Assembly (NCBI GenBank): GCA_947446855.1
Contig: CANFIH010000014.1
Coordinates: 1-42,762 of the forward strand
DNA: 42,762 nt
Reading direction: 5' to 3'
From: Burkholderiales bacterium
GTDB taxonomy: Bacteria > Pseudomonadota > Gammaproteobacteria > Burkholderiales > Burkholderiaceae_C
Positions within the stretch are counted from its first letter, which is position 1; every line of letters begins with the position of its first letter. The position numbers and the translations under genes are program-made. Shown one piece after another: positions 6,283 to 39,081 of the stretch. The notes beneath the pieces are model-generated. The model was not told the DNA's origin. It was given only the letters and a program-made list of their open reading frames with translations, and made no database searches.

Positions 6283-6774
6283 TCAGCTGGAGCGGGGGCT
6301 CACCGCTTGATGGGTGTCTGCGGAAAAACCCCGCTCTTGCGCAAACCAGGCCAGCACAGGCACCGTGCCCGGTAGCACCGGCTGCACCTGCACCGGCAGT
6401 TGTTCCCAGGAGAACTCTTGTGCCTCACGCATCTGCAGCTCACCACCCCAGTCAAACACCTTGCAGAAATGCAACCGGACCAGCGCGTGCGGATAGTCCA
6501 CCATTTCGACATGCCAAGGCGTGACGGCACCAACGGTGATGCCGAGCTCTTCTTGCAACTCACGGCGCAAAGCCTGCTCTACCGACTCCTCCGCCTCGAG
6601 CTTGCCACCGGGAAACTCCCAGTAACCGGCATACACCTTGCCCACGGGACGTGAGGTCAGCAGAAAAGCACCGTCGCCACGCACCAGCACGCCCACCGCC
6701 ACTTCGGTCACCGGGCGATCCGGCCCACCCAGGCGCTCGGCATGGGCGTCGGCCATCAAGGTGAGTTTGCTCAT
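6283..6774 (-). CDS. mutT: NUDIX hydrolase, MutT family
   Basis: Nudix box GGKLEAEESVEQALRRELQEELGI. Confidence 0.9.
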   Translation of the reverse strand: MSKLTLMADAHAERLGGPDRPVTEVAVGVLVRGDGAFLLTSRPVGKVYAGYWEFPGGKLEAEESVEQALRRELQEELGITVGAVTPWHVEMVDYPHALVRLHFCKVFDWGGELQMREAQEFSWEQLPVQVQPVLPGTVPVLAWFAQERGFSADTHQAVSPRSS

Positions 6775-7658
6775 TCCAGCGAGGTCTTGCGACCGGCGTA
6801 GTCCTGGGCAAACTGCCGGGCCACGCGGCCGCTACGGGAACCGCGCTCCAGCGCCCACAAGAGCGCATCAGGGCGTGCCGTCTCGATCTCGCTGGCAGAT
6901 ACGCCCAACACGCTCAGCCACTGGGCAGCGATGTGCAGGTATTCGTCCTGCGTGAACGGGTAGAAGCTAACCCACAGACCAAAACGCTCGGACAGCGATA
7001 TTTTTTCCTCCACCACTTCGCCCGGATGCACCTCGCCCTCAGGCGTGTGGGTGTAGGTGAGGTTCTCCGACATGTACTCGGGCAACAGGTGACGGCGGTT
7101 GCTGGTGGCATAGACCAACACATTGGCTGTGGCAGCGGCCACCGAACCATCCAGCACCGACTTCAAGGCCTTGTAGCCGGGCTCGCCTTCGTCAAAACTC
7201 AAGTCATCGCAGAACACAATGAACTTTTCGGGCCGCTTGGCCACCAGGTCCACAATGTCCGGCAGGTCCACCAGATCGGCCTTGTCCACTTCAATCAGGC
7301 GCAGACCCTGGGCGGCATAGGTGTGCAGGCAAGCGCGGATCAGGGACGACTTTCCGGTACCCCGGGCGCCGGTCAGCAGCACGTTATTGGCCGTGGCCCC
7401 CCGCACAAACTGCGCCGTGTTGCGCTGGATTTTTTCTTTCTGCTGATCGATATCAACAAGATCTGCCAGGCTCATGGCGCCCACGTGGTGCACCGGCGAA
7501 ATCACACCCTGGCCGGAAGAGCGGCGGCGGTAGCGAAAGGCGATGGACTCGTTCCAGTCCGGCTCGGACAGACCATGCGGCAAGGAAGCCTCGACCCGCG
7601 CCATAAACAGCTCAGCACGCGCCAGAAATAGTTCTATCTTTTCATTCATATCAAGCAT
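6771..7658 (-). CDS. ATP-binding protein of the DUF815 family
   Basis: NNVLLTGARGTGKSSLIRA Walker A, FIVFCDDLSFDEGE Walker B; ATGA overlap with mutT. Confidence 0.85.
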   Translation of the reverse strand: MLDMNEKIELFLARAELFMARVEASLPHGLSEPDWNESIAFRYRRRSSGQGVISPVHHVGAMSLADLVDIDQQKEKIQRNTAQFVRGATANNVLLTGARGTGKSSLIRACLHTYAAQGLRLIEVDKADLVDLPDIVDLVAKRPEKFIVFCDDLSFDEGEPGYKALKSVLDGSVAAATANVLVYATSNRRHLLPEYMSENLTYTHTPEGEVHPGEVVEEKISLSERFGLWVSFYPFTQDEYLHIAAQWLSVLGVSASEIETARPDALLWALERGSRSGRVARQFAQDYAGRKTSLE

Positions 7659-7683
7659 CCGGAGCGCAAGGCGTTAACACAGG

Positions 7684-7760
7684 AACACCGTGGAACCGGC
7701 TTGGCCGGGCCACTGGTGTTGAGCCAGCAAGGGGGGAACAGGCGACACGCAGTGAGCCTG
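7684..7760 (-). repeat. Copy A of a two-hairpin intergenic element (copy B at 24651-24731)
   Basis: Hairpin 1 at 7684-7720 (AACACC-G-TGG-AA-CCGGC-TTG-GCCGG-G-CCA-CT-GGTGTT) and hairpin 2 at 7739-7760 (CAGGC-GACACGCAGTGA-GCCTG), alignable without gaps in both hairpins to copy B. Confidence 0.8.
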
Positions 7761-7771
7761 GACGGGGGTGT

Positions 7772-9001
7772 TCAACTCCGATAATCAGCGTTGATGGTGA
7801 CGTACTCGTGGCTGAAGTCACAGGTCCAAACGGTCTCTGTGGCATCGCCGCGGCCCAGTGCCACACGCACGGTAATCTCGGCCTGCTGCATGACACGCTG
7901 CCCGTCTTCCTCACGGTAGGCCGGATTGCGCCCGCCTTGTGTGGCCACATGCACATCGTCCAGAAACAACTCGATGCCGGTTTGGTCCAGATCGTCGATG
8001 CCGGCGTAACCTACTGCGGCCAGGATGCGGCCCAGATTGGGATCCGACGCATAGAACGCGGTTTTGACCAGCGGCGAATGGGCAATGGCATAGGCTACCT
8101 TGCGGCACTCTTCGGCGTCGCGCCCACCTTGCACCACCACGCTAATGAATTTGGTGGCACCTTCACCGTCGCGCACAATGGCTTGCGCCAGTTTGCGCGC
8201 CACGTCCAGCATCAGCGCTTTGAGTGCCTGGCCTTCGGCAGACGCCAGCGACGCAATGGGCGCATTGCCAGCGTGCTTGGTGGCAATCACCACCAGCGAG
8301 TCATTCGTAGAAGTGTCGCCGTCCACGGTCACGCGGTTGAACGAGCCTTCAGCCAGCTCCAGCGACAGCTGCTTCATCACCGCTTGGTCCACATCCGCAT
8401 CGGTAGCGATAAAACCCAGCATGGTGGCCATGTTCGGGCGGATCATGCCCGCACCCTTGCTGATGCCGCATACGCTCACCCATTTGCCGCCCACCATGCC
8501 TTGGGCACCAAAGGCCTTGGGCTGGGTGTCGGTGGTCATGATGCCTTCGGCGGCCTTTAACCAGTTGTCAGGCTTGGCGTCAGCAAGCGCTGCGTCCAGA
8601 CCGGCTTCAATGCGGTCAACAGGCAGCGTTTCCATGATCACGCCCGTAGAAAACGGCAGCACTTGCGATGCGTCTACGCCCAAACGCCGGGCCAGTGCGG
8701 CACAGGTGCTGCGCGCACGTCTCAGACCGTCGGCTCCCGTGCCGGCATTGGCATTGCCGGTGTTGATGACCATGGCGCGAATGGCATGGCCACCCTCCAG
8801 ATGTTCACGGCACAGTTGCACAGGCGCGGCGCAAAAACGATTCGAAGTAAACACGCCGGAGACGCTGGCACCGGCATCGATCAGCACCACCGTCAGATCT
8901 TTGCGGTTGGATTTGCGGATGCCGGCTTCAGTGACACCGATGCGCACACCCGCGATCGGGTACAGCGTGGCCGCATCTGGCATGGGCAGGTTAACGGGCA
9001 T
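7772..9001 (-). CDS. argJ: bifunctional glutamate N-acetyltransferase / amino-acid N-acetyltransferase ArgJ
   Basis: 409 aa with [18 protein letters not shown] autocleavage region, [17 protein letters not shown]. Confidence 0.96.
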
Positions 9002-24146: not shown

Positions 24147-24536
24147 TTACTTGTAGATGGATGCGGGATCTTTCAAGACCGGGTCGGCACTTTGCCAGGC
24201 TCCGTCCTTCAAGATACTGAAAAAACAGCTGTGGCGACCGGTGTGGCAGGCAATGCCGGGCTCATGACCCAACTGTGTAATCTTGAGCAGCACCACATCG
24301 TTGTCGCAATCGATGCGTATTTCGTGCACGGTTTGCACATGGCCGGACTCTTCGCCCTTGAACCACAACTTGTCGCGCGAACGGCTGAAATACACCGCCC
24401 GGCCCAGCTCGGCGGTCTTCTGCAGCGCCTCGCGGTTCATCCACGCAAACATCAGGACATCGTTGCTGCCCTGCTCCTGCGCGATCACGGGCACCAGGCC
24501 CTGCGCATCCCATTTGACTTCGTCTAACCAGTTCAT
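24147..24536 (-). CDS. hisI: phosphoribosyl-AMP cyclohydrolase
   Basis: [61 protein letters not shown]. Confidence 0.97.
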
Positions 24537-24650
24537 ACGAGGATTGTCCGTGATTTGAAAAATGAAGATTCGGCCACAAACATTTCGGTGGCATTACCGC
24601 AAGTGCGAGGAACTAGCCCAGCCCACAGTGCAGGCCACCGAGCCTCCAGG

Positions 24651-24731
24651 GATACCGCAGAACCGGCTTCGCCGGGCCGCTGGTATCGTCCCCGGCAGGG
24701 GGAAACAGACTTGCGACACGCAGTGCGCAAG
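24651..24731 (-). repeat. Copy B of a two-hairpin intergenic element (copy A at 7684-7760)
   Basis: Hairpin 1 at 24651-24687 (GATACC-G-CAG-AA-CCGGC-TTC-GCCGG-G-CCG-CT-GGTATC), possible TCCCC-GGCAG-GGGGA middle stem, hairpin 2 at 24710-24731 (CTTGC-GACACGCAGTGC-GCAAG). Confidence 0.8.
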
Positions 24732-24743
24732 GCTGATAGGAGG

Positions 24744-25541
24744 TTACCTTCTTACCGGTATGCCGCGTTCGGCCATGCGCGCCTTGGCCTGAGCCACGGT
24801 GAACTCGCCGTAATGGAAGATGCTGGCGGCCAGCACGGCATCGGCGCCGCCCTGTTGCACCCCATCGGCCAGATGGTCCAGCGTGCCGACACCACCGGAG
24901 GCGATCACCGGCACCGGCACCGCATCGGCCACAGCCCGCGTGAGTTGCAGATCAAAGCCCGACTTGGTGCCATCGCGGTCCATGCTGGTGAGCAGAATTT
25001 CGCCGGCGCCGCGCCTTGCCATCTCGGCGGCCCACTGCACCGCGTCCAGGCCGACGTTTTTGCGCCCGCCATGGCTGTACACATCCCAGCCCGGACCAAT
25101 CGCTACGCCGTTAATCAGACGCAGCGCGTCTTCGGCCGAGCGGCGTTTGGCATCGATGGCCACCACAATGCACTGCGCACCGTATTTGAGGGACGCGTCT
25201 TCAATGATTTGGGGATTAGAAATAGCGGCCGAGTTGAAGCTGACCTTGTCCGCACCAGCATTGAGCAGGCGGCGCACATCTTCCACCACGCGCACACCAC
25301 CACCCACTGTCAGCGGAATGAACACCTGGGAGGCCACGGCTTCAATGATGTGGAGGATCAGATCGCGACCATCGCTGGTGGCCGTGATGTCCAAAAACGT
25401 GAGCTCGTCTGCGCCCTGCTCGTTGTAGCGTGCGGCGATTTCGACCGGATCCCCGGCATCGCGCAGTTCTACGAAATTGACACCTTTGACGACTCTGCCG
25501 CCCGTGACGTCGAGGCAGGGAATGATGCGTTTTGCGAGCAT
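24744..25541 (-). CDS. hisF: imidazole glycerol phosphate synthase subunit HisF
   Basis: [54 protein letters not shown]. Confidence 0.98.
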
Positions 25542-32554: not shown

Positions 32555-32557
32555 ATT

Positions 32558-32636
32558 GAAGCCCCCACGTTTCTCGCTGCGCGTAGTGCACTGACCCCCG
32601 AGGGGGCTTTCGCGCCTTGGGACGGCCCAGCGGCGC
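32558..32636 (-). repeat. GC-rich intergenic repeat, family 2, copy D (inverted relative to copy C)
   Basis: On the - strand: GCTGGGCCGTCCCAAGGCGCGAAAGCCCCCTCGGGGGTCAGTGCACTACGCGCAGCGAGAAACGTGGGGGC; shares GGCCG.CC.AAGG, CCCCTCGGGGG.CAG and ACGTGGGGGC-like blocks with copy C. Confidence 0.6.
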
Positions 32637-33596
32637 TCATGCCGCTACTCCCGTAGCGTGCACAGAACCCTTGTTCTGCGCCATCACATCCAGAAACACA
32701 TCTTCCAGATCGGCCTTGCGGATCTCAATATCGTGGGCCACCAAGCCGGCTTCGCGCACGGCGGCCAGATAGCTTTCAATCTCCAATGCATCATTGGCCG
32801 GAAACTGGACGATGCGGCCGGTGATACGCGCCTTGTCGGCCAAAGCTTTGGGCAACTCGGCATCGAGCTTGAAGCGCAGCACATTGCTGGAAGCGGCCTT
32901 GAGCAGGTCACTGGTCTTGTCCAGCGCCACAATGCGGCCGGTCTTGAGCATGGCAATGCGGCCGCACAGGGCCTCGGCCTCTTCCAGGTAATGGGTGGTC
33001 AACAAAACGGTGTGGCCTTCGCGATTCAGTTTGGCAATGAATTGCCACAGGGTCTGGCGCAGTTCCACATCCACACCGGCGGTCGGTTCGTCCAGCACGA
33101 TCACCGGGGGCTTGTGTACCAGAGCCTGCGCCACCAGCACACGGCGCTTCATGCCGCCGGAGAGCTGGCGCATATTGGCGTTGGCCTTGTCGGCCAGGCC
33201 CAGGCTTTCCAGCAGTTCGTCAATCCAGGCACCGTTGTTCTTGATGCCGAAGTAGCCGGACTGGATGTGCAGCAGTTCGCGCACATTGAAGAAGGGGTCG
33301 AACACCAGCTCTTGTGGCACCACGCCCAGGCTACGGCGCGCTGCGGCAAAGTCGGATTGCACGTCGTGGCCCAGCACGCTCACGCGTCCGTTGGTGGCCC
33401 GGGTGAGCCCGGCCAGCACGCTGATCATGGTGGTTTTGCCCGCTCCGTTGGGCCCCAGCAGGCCAAAAAACTCGCCCTCCTGGATATCGAGACTGACACC
33501 GTCAAGGGCCAGAAAGGTGCTACCGGCTGCGCTCGTTTTCGAGGACTTGGGCGACGGATAAGCTTTGGAGACGGATTGGAAGGAGATAGCGGTCAT
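32637..33596 (-). CDS. ABC transporter ATP-binding protein (YadG/NodI-like)
   Basis: GLLGPNGAGKTTMISVLAGLTR Walker A, QLSGGMKRRVLVAQALVHKPPVIVLDEPTAGVD signature and Walker B. Confidence 0.94.
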   Translation of the reverse strand: MTAISFQSVSKAYPSPKSSKTSAAGSTFLALDGVSLDIQEGEFFGLLGPNGAGKTTMISVLAGLTRATNGRVSVLGHDVQSDFAAARRSLGVVPQELVFDPFFNVRELLHIQSGYFGIKNNGAWIDELLESLGLADKANANMRQLSGGMKRRVLVAQALVHKPPVIVLDEPTAGVDVELRQTLWQFIAKLNREGHTVLLTTHYLEEAEALCGRIAMLKTGRIVALDKTSDLLKAASSNVLRFKLDAELPKALADKARITGRIVQFPANDALEIESYLAAVREAGLVAHDIEIRKADLEDVFLDVMAQNKGSVHATGVAA

Positions 33597-37501: not shown

Positions 37502-37521
37502 GCATCATAAGGGATAACGCT

Positions 37522-37610
37522 TAGCCCCGAGCAGGGCCGCCCCAAACGGGGCTACACCCGCATGGGGGGCGTGAGCCACGCACAGCGGGCGAGCTCGGGG
37601 GCGCCATTTC
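37522..37610 (+). repeat. Structured GC-rich intergenic segment, possible diverged copy E of repeat family 2
   Basis: Contains TAGCCCCG..CGGGGCTA (37522-37554), GCGTG-AGC-CACGC (37569-37581), and blocks GGCCGCCC.AA, GGGGGGC, GGGGGC..TTTCATC shared with copy C. Confidence 0.45.
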
Positions 37611-39081
37611 ATCGCGGCAGGACGCTGCTGCCCATGAGGAACTCGTCCACCGCACGCGCTGCCTGACGGCCTTCGCGGATGGCCCACACCACCAGGCTCT
37701 GACCACGACGCATGTCACCGGCAGCAAACACCTTGGGCACATTGGTGGTGTAGCAACCTGCAGCGTCTGTAGTCGCCTTGGCATTGCCACGGGCATCCTT
37801 ATCCACACCAAAGGCTTCGAGGACGGTAGCCACCGGATTGACAAAGCCCATGGCCAGCAGCACCAGGTCGGCCTTGAGGATTTTCTCGGAGCCGGCCACT
37901 TCGACCATCTTGCCTTCCTTCCACTCCACCTGCACCGTCTTCAGACCGGTGACCTTGCCTTTTTCACCGATGAATTCCTTGGTGGAAATGGCAAACACGC
38001 GCTCGCAGCCTTCGTCGTGGCTGGAACTGGTGCGCAATTTCAGCGGCCAGTAGGGCCAGGTCATGGGGCGGTTTTCTTCCACCGGCGGCTGGGGCATGAC
38101 CTCAAACTGCGTGACGCTGACCGCGCCATGCCGGTTGCTGGTACCCACGCAATCGGAGCCGGTGTCGCCGCCGCCGATGACGATGACATGCTTGCCGTCG
38201 GCGCGCAACTGGCCCTTGAGCTTGTCGCCGGCGTTGACCTTGTTTTGCTGCGGCAGGAATTCCATCGCAAAGTGGATGCCGTCGAGTTCGCGGCCGGGCA
38301 CCGGCAGATCGCGCGATTGCTCGGAACCGCCCGTCAGCACCACGGCGTCAAAGTCTTTGTTGAGCTGTTCAGCGGAAATGGTTTCCTTGGCCCAGTTGGT
38401 GACCTTGGAGCCCTTGGGCATTTCACCGATCAGCACGCCGGTGCGAATCGTCACACCCTCGGCCTTGAGCTGTTCGGCGCGGCGGTCGATGTGCGACTTT
38501 TCCATCTTGAAATCGGGAATGCCGTAACGCAACAGGCCACCAATGCGGTCGTTCTTTTCGAACAGGGTCACGTCGTGGCCGGCACGTGCCAGTTGCTGGC
38601 TTGCTGCCATTCCGGCAGGGCCGGAGCCGACCACGGCGACTTTTTTGCCGGTCTTGGTCTTGGCCGGTTGGGCCACCACCCAGCCTTCGTGCCAGGCGCG
38701 GTCGATGATGGCGTGCTCGATGGACTTGATGCCCACCGCTTCCTCGTTGACGTTCAGGGTGCAGGCGGCCTCGCACGGTGCGGGGCAGATGCGGCCGGTG
38801 AACTCGGGGAAGTTGTTGGTGCTGTGCAGCACGTCGATAGCGGCCTTCCAGTCGCCGCGGTACACCAGATCGTTGAAATCCGGAATGATGTTATTGACCG
38901 GGCAGCCGTTGTTGCAAAACGGTGTGCCGCAGTCCATGCAGCGCGCAGCCTGCTTGTTGGCCTGGACATCGTCCAGACCGATGACAAATTCCTTGTAATT
39001 CTTGAGACGTTCGGCAACGGGCTTGTAGCCCTCCTCGATGCGCTCAAACTCCATGAATCCCGTGATTTTTCCCATATTCAC
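37609..39081 (-). CDS. gltD: glutamate synthase small subunit
   Basis: [94 protein letters not shown]. Confidence 0.97.

Follow-up and report, generated by a model that had tools for sequence, protein, structure and literature searches.

The window, that is, the whole stretch of DNA analysed, comprises 42,762 nucleotides of Burkholderiales bacterium GCA_947446855.1 (contig CANFIH010000014.1, positions 1–42,762, forward strand) and contains two copies, A and B, of an intergenic palindromic repeat (Table 1). Copy A is located between argJ and the gene of a DUF815 AAA-type ATPase; copy B lies between hisF (stop codon 24744–24746, − strand) and hisI (start at 24536, − strand), where we infer the name hisF from the length of the gene and its position beside hisI and hisE. 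Alignment of many copies reveals a canonical element of about 90 nt, which consists of a left end CAGG, a 15-pair hairpin 1 (CCGYGGAACCGGCTTYGCCGGGCCRC in this element family), a CCCCC/GGGGG hairpin, a third hairpin with the core GACACGCAGTG, and a terminal G-run. Copy A extends from CAGG on the left to the G-run followed by TGTTCA on the right. The transcribed strand of argJ is the − strand, on which the G-run, read as mRNA, is the first C-run past the argJ stop codon. In copy B, the G-run is not intact, having been lost or having degenerated.

Table 1. Repeat copies, their modules, adjoining genes and related repeats in the window
Feature	Positions	Strand	Evidence and remarks
Copy A, whole element	7680–7774	+	R2 covariance match 7679–7774, 69.4 bits, E 3.6e-12; R1 match 7679–7773
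Copy A hairpin 1	7684–7720	+	37 nt; 15 pairs (6 + 4 + 5), T bulge, AA/G internal loop; covariation
Copy A middle module	7721–7738	+	Degenerate remnant of CCCCC/GGGGG hairpin (GAGCCAGCAAGGGGGGAA), from alignment with other copies
Copy A hairpin 3 (hairpin 2 of the first-pass annotation)	7739–7760	+	22 nt, core GACACGCAGTG
Copy A terminal G-run	7764–7768	+	3 nt from argJ stop codon (7772–7774, −)
argJ, stop codon abutting copy A	7772–9001	−	Pfam ArgJ, E 7.7e-140
DUF815 AAA-type ATPase gene, next co-directional gene after copy A	6771–7658	−	Pfam DUF815, E 8.6e-103
Copy B, whole element	24646–24746	+	R2 match 24646–24745, 82.4 bits, E 1e-14
Copy B hairpin 1	24651–24687	+	37 nt
Copy B middle hairpin (TCCCC/GGGGA)	24689–24703	+	Intact through compensatory U-A
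Copy B hairpin 3	24710–24731	+	22 nt
hisF, stop codon abutting copy B	24744–25541	−	Pfam His_biosynth, E 9.4e-84
hisI (PRA-CH), next gene after copy B	24147–24536	−	Pfam PRA-CH, E 2e-33
BRE-type sister element, hairpin 1 AGCCCCGAGCAGGGCCGCCCCAAACGGGGCT	37523–37601	+	R2 weak match 37518–37607, E 0.045; motif GGGCCGCCCCAA
BRE-type sister element, opposite orientation	32560–32641	−	R2 weak match 32555–32641, E 0.092; motif GGGCCGTCCCAAG

A first-pass annotation of the sequence had described copies A and B as a two-hairpin element with compensatory base changes. Both hairpins are present, and the comparison between them holds on direct reading. Hairpin 1 aligns over 37 nt with eight differences, six of which make up compensatory pairs at positions 1/37, 3/35, and 8/29, the other two being found at position 9 and at loop position 20; in the second hairpin, two stem pairs are swapped over 22 nt while the core GACACGCAGTG is identical. 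The extent that was proposed, however, was too small, as both copies continue beyond these hairpins and the canonical unit has three of them in addition to the G-run. Likewise, copy A does lie just 3′ of the argJ stop codon as annotated, but the relevant distance is the 3 nt from the stop codon to the G-run instead of 11 nt.

We searched for further copies in the same genome and its relatives. A BLAST search with copy A returned seven other significant hits, complete or partial, in its own genome, and the covariance-model search that the first-pass annotation had put forward as a check yielded 11–17 matches there, with full-element E values down to 4.6e-23. The core GACACGCAGTG by itself, allowing two mismatches, does not occur with unusual frequency; the full element is well beyond chance. 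Within the genus, model R1 detected the element in 25 of 37 genomes, counting the own one, with up to 31 matches per genome. Across the taxonomic family, R1 found matches in 171 of 251 genomes and 110 of 141 genera, a count for which the best 16 or so candidates per genome were scored and in which weak matches may in part represent other GC hairpins; outside the family, R1 found no match in 24 further families of the order. Among named genomes, gathered via a BugD protein query after a Bordetella primer used as a probe had given no match, the element was found in Bordetella sp. BOR01 (28 matches), Achromobacter insolitus (33), A. xylosoxidans (12), Bordetella ansorpii, and Bordetella genomosp. 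13. The copies, which occur in Comamonadaceae-like genomes, Bordetella, and Achromobacter, are 80–100 nt long with a GC content mostly of 0.61–0.77. In the window, Rfam matched only a tRNA, and at copy A nothing meaningful was obtained even with relaxed thresholds; a text search of the literature for the hairpin-1 core found no occurrence. The covariance models allow the annotation of many so far unannotated intergenic stretches.

The stems of the element covary strongly. In an alignment of 83 copies, made with MAFFT from sequence alone and using no structure, 94.2% of cells pair, 16 pairs show double changes (8.9 in shuffles), and 201 cells are changed on both sides (55 in shuffles). Hairpin 1 covaries at 12 of its 15 pairs, and none of 500 shuffles reached the observed values; sliding the partners against each other destroyed the pairing. 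The eight copies in the own genome already display double changes at 9 pairs, versus 4.4 ± 1.3 in shuffles. The same result was obtained for 25 Bordetella/Achromobacter-type copies aligned separately, as well as for 82 further copies in an alignment that was fitted to the model and is hence less independent. Among the 83 copies there are 38 distinct outer-stem sequences, nearly all of them complementary, which indicates that stem changes arose repeatedly. From two sequences, the first-pass annotation had attributed the likeness not to chance but to selection on, or mobilization through, a folded form, and had named as refuting outcomes that no further copies would be found or that loops would vary as much as stems. 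Neither was the case, and its proposal is now backed by many copies.

The repeat resembles the Beta-proteobacterial repeat element, BRE, a GC-rich, mainly intergenic sequence of about 75–91 bp named in 2011 with no function given (PMC3110155). Hot et al. (2011, PMC3110155) reported it, at about 90 bp, from Bordetella, Polaromonas, Delftia, Rhodoferax, and Acidovorax; in B. pertussis it forms two tandem copies beside lexA (PMC3110155). Using this published location, we identified BRE in a Bordetella-genus genome that appears to be B. pertussis as two 82-bp units in tandem behind lexA. These have the same module order as the present element, and R2 aligns modules 2 and 3 to both repeats with 20.8 and 18.2 bits. 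Their hairpin 1, in contrast, has the core GCCGGGCCGCCCCAA instead of CCGYGGAACCGGCTTYGCCGGGCCRC, and the full-element models R1 and R3 gave no match in that genome. Our first assumption, that the element is identical with BRE, was dropped upon finding this different hairpin 1. The shared order and length, the homology of modules 2 and 3, tandem copies in Achromobacter, and the wide occurrence in Comamonadaceae and Alcaligenaceae would all accord with such an identity, which we nevertheless judge to be quite unlikely, given the lexA-locus hairpin and the fact that the BRE type and the CCGGCTTYGCCGG type coexist in the window as well as in the genus. By comparison with the lexA-locus repeat, the element is probably a new sister subfamily of BRE.

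Both sister repeats in the window are of the GGGCCGCCCCAAG type. In the one on the + strand, 7 nt separate the G-run from the stop codon of an ORF at 37609–39081 (−), and the one in opposite orientation has its hairpin-1 end on the stop codon of an ORF at 32637–33596 (−). The BRE core, allowing at most one mismatch, occurs 17 times in the own genome, which seems to hold a third hairpin-1 type as well: near contig ends (L010:143–200 and L015:161–220), GGTGGGCGTCCATATACGCCCCAAG is followed by modules 2 and 3 with GACACGCAGTG. Judging from the sequences of these coexisting hairpin-1 types and of some BRE-type copies that carry the GACACGCAGTG core, the family seems to be built from modules, in that hairpin 1 can be exchanged while the body of hairpin 2, hairpin 3, and G-run is shared. 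In Achromobacter insolitus (for example C21:562008–562351), BRE-type cores recur in tandem every 82 bases or so, in up to five or more copies. Two Bordetella-genus loci (L288 and L292, genomes G331 and G332) contain TGAGCGC..GCGCTCA repeats with stop codons in both directions around the GGGCCGCCCCAA core.

The first-pass annotation had placed both copies just 3′ of a stop codon, a position that proves to be general across the family. We determined the longest ORF running into either end of each copy, ORFs being defined by length rather than with a gene finder, and counted a stop codon if it fell in the range from 15 nt before the G-run end to 5 nt inside it. In a first set, the stop codon was at the G-run end in 69 of 81 copies, versus 4 at the opposite end; in a second, independent set taken from further down the score lists, this was so in 71 of 82 copies versus 5, with 4% for random positions in the same loci. 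Taken together, 140 of 163 copies (86%) have the stop codon of an incoming long ORF at most 15 nt from their G-run end, compared with 4% of random positions. Some of the exceptions are second copies in tandem arrays. Copies of the BRE type are less regular, with the stop codon at the G-run end in 16 of 36 and at the other end in 9; those in one genome of the same genus (G014) mostly abut stop codons too. Outside the G-run, the conserved bases on the mRNA strand are GAACA or GCACA, and in several copies, that at argJ among them, the stop codon is the TGA within TGAACA. The next gene was co-directional for 40 of 81 copies, convergent for 6, and unclear for 35. In the literature examined, we found no such stop-codon rule.

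Comparison of orthologous loci shows that the element is polymorphic. Between argJ and the DUF815 gene it is present in 3 of about 29 loci of the genus, and the distance from argJ to the next gene is about 10–20 nt in closely related empty sites and more than 100 nt in filled ones. ArgJ ends in Tyr-Arg-Ser in all cases, with the serine encoded by AGT before TGA in filled sites and by TCN before TAA or TGA in the empty sites examined. The element at argJ is probably an insertion into the gap of about 10–20 nt found in relatives. Between hisF and hisI, the element occurs in 3 of 30 loci of the genus, one of which (genome G031, L257:1175–1396) has two tandem copies. Since each of these comparisons between empty and filled sites involves few species, deletion rather than insertion could be responsible at a given locus. 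In addition, some copies appear to lie behind the same gene in different species, and once across genera (L028, L030, L031, and L076, by their right flanks; L002, L036, L038, L040, and L046), suggesting either old insertions that were retained or repeated insertion at one gene end. The matching of flanks expected of a target-site duplication, and thus of a MITE, was not in excess over re-paired flanks in 77 copies. As for terminal inverted repeats, the right-end GAACACC has a counterpart at the left end in just those copies whose stem is AACACC, and it shows no covariation with that stem.

Considering these observations, we have moderate confidence that the element belongs, as a new subfamily, to the palindromic, non-coding, mobile-type repeats of the BRE/REP kind, is placed in a fixed orientation behind stop codons, and probably acts as a REP-like hairpin at mRNA 3′ ends. 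The element would insert, or be retained, in that orientation directly behind stop codons, often inside operons, so that on the mRNA of the upstream gene it would be the first structure past the stop codon. By analogy with the REPs of E. coli, of which those at most 15 nt from a stop codon downregulate translation (PMC12306157), its position suggests an action on mRNA ends, where it may form a 3′ hairpin that blocks exonucleases and is able to slow terminating ribosomes. Its spread would presumably depend on an enzyme acting on the DNA hairpin. The proximity to stop codons could, however, reflect selection on retention rather than function.

It is also conceivable, if unlikely, that a functional RNA, either a regulatory or processing element in the 3′ UTR or an sRNA, is the main cause of the covariation, with spread being secondary. 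The fixed orientation toward the upstream mRNA would agree with this, and the − strand folds better as RNA than shuffles in 7 of 8 copies tested (z −2.3 to −4.5); for copies A and L028, the preferred RNA fold is a different one, which makes single-sequence folding weaker evidence than covariation. Moreover, an 80-nt transcript of B. pertussis, BprJ1, stems from a BRE-containing region (PMC3110155), and bprJ is altered in an RNase III mutant (PMC8386462), so that relatives in the BRE group may be transcribed and possibly processed. On the other hand, the element is absent from most orthologous sites in the genus, meaning that no gene depends on it, and G-U is not clearly commoner than A-C in hairpin 1 on either strand. 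Among about 2,400 cells, mismatches on the + strand comprised 9 G-U versus 10 A-C, and 18 G-U versus 7 A-C; the counts are small, and with them hairpin 1 tolerates G-U no better than A-C, its pairing being roughly strand-symmetric. Selection on RNA from one strand should favor G-U there, whereas a symmetric pattern better fits the maintenance, copying, or mobilization of a DNA hairpin. These small counts therefore point to stem pairing being maintained at the DNA level. An intrinsic transcription terminator amplified by duplication, as might be suspected from strong GC hairpins right behind stop codons and from the related BRE, which carries a hairpin followed by T5–T6, is very improbable. Neither copy A nor copy B has a T-run or a terminator-like site, and efficient termination would shut off the gene that follows, which argues against it both between hisF and hisI and between argJ and the co-directional gene that follows copy A after 21 nt.

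The mode of spread allows for further alternatives. A classical REP, mobilized by a TnpA_REP/RAYT transposase of the Y1 HUH type, would likewise be a many-copy extragenic palindrome with an internal stem mismatch, situated between operon genes and near stop codons as in E. coli. We consider this improbable, as hairpin 1 is not preceded on its 5′ side by a conserved GTAG-type tetranucleotide, the left flank being CAGG or CGGG, and in 15 genomes no element was found within 1.5 kb of any of 21 loci with the Y1-family domain PF01797. An undescribed process might instead target insertion to gene ends, in one orientation and a few bases from stop codons, perhaps importing a stop codon with the element (TGAACACCCCC), a tentative idea to which we give a low likelihood. 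If it were true, the element would move by a transposition or copying route linked both to a DNA hairpin and to gene or transcript 3′ ends, and its hairpin-1 modules would be interchangeable. For the favored reading, a REP-like hairpin at mRNA 3′ ends, a clue to the role of the BRE kind comes from the fixed orientation and the spacing of 0–15 nt after stop codons, seen in 86% of tested copies from many genera: do these repeats adjust mRNA decay and the termination of translation in Burkholderiales, as REPs do in E. coli? It also raises the question of which enzyme brings these palindromes to gene ends.

NEMIS and RUP have terminal inverted repeats with TA duplications, from which the present element differs in that no target-site duplication was detected. 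It resembles them, as well as ERIC and BOX, all of which are intergenic repeats given as comparisons for BRE (PMC3110155), in being short, palindromic, non-coding, and dispersed, with features of mobile elements. With the REPs of E. coli (REP/BIME, TnpA_REP), it shares the nature of an extragenic imperfect palindrome found in operons and 3′ UTRs, a share of which is located near stop codons. It lacks their GTAG foot and a linked Y1/RAYT gene, however, and consists of a longer three-hairpin unit of unrelated sequence, a higher share of which adjoins stop codons; for E. coli REPs, 260 of 496 in one count and 446 of 4,072 in another lie at most 15 nt from a stop codon (PMC12306157). Compared with BRE, apart from the less regular placement of BRE at stop codons, the differences are another hairpin 1 and the absence of a T-run after the middle hairpin. 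The likeness to BRE comprises a length of 80–90 bp, the intergenic location, the high GC content, the occasional tandem arrangement, the order of hairpin 1, GCCCCCT–GGGGGG hairpin, third hairpin, and G-run, and a third-hairpin core GACACGCAGTG that is common to some BRE-type copies of the same genus.
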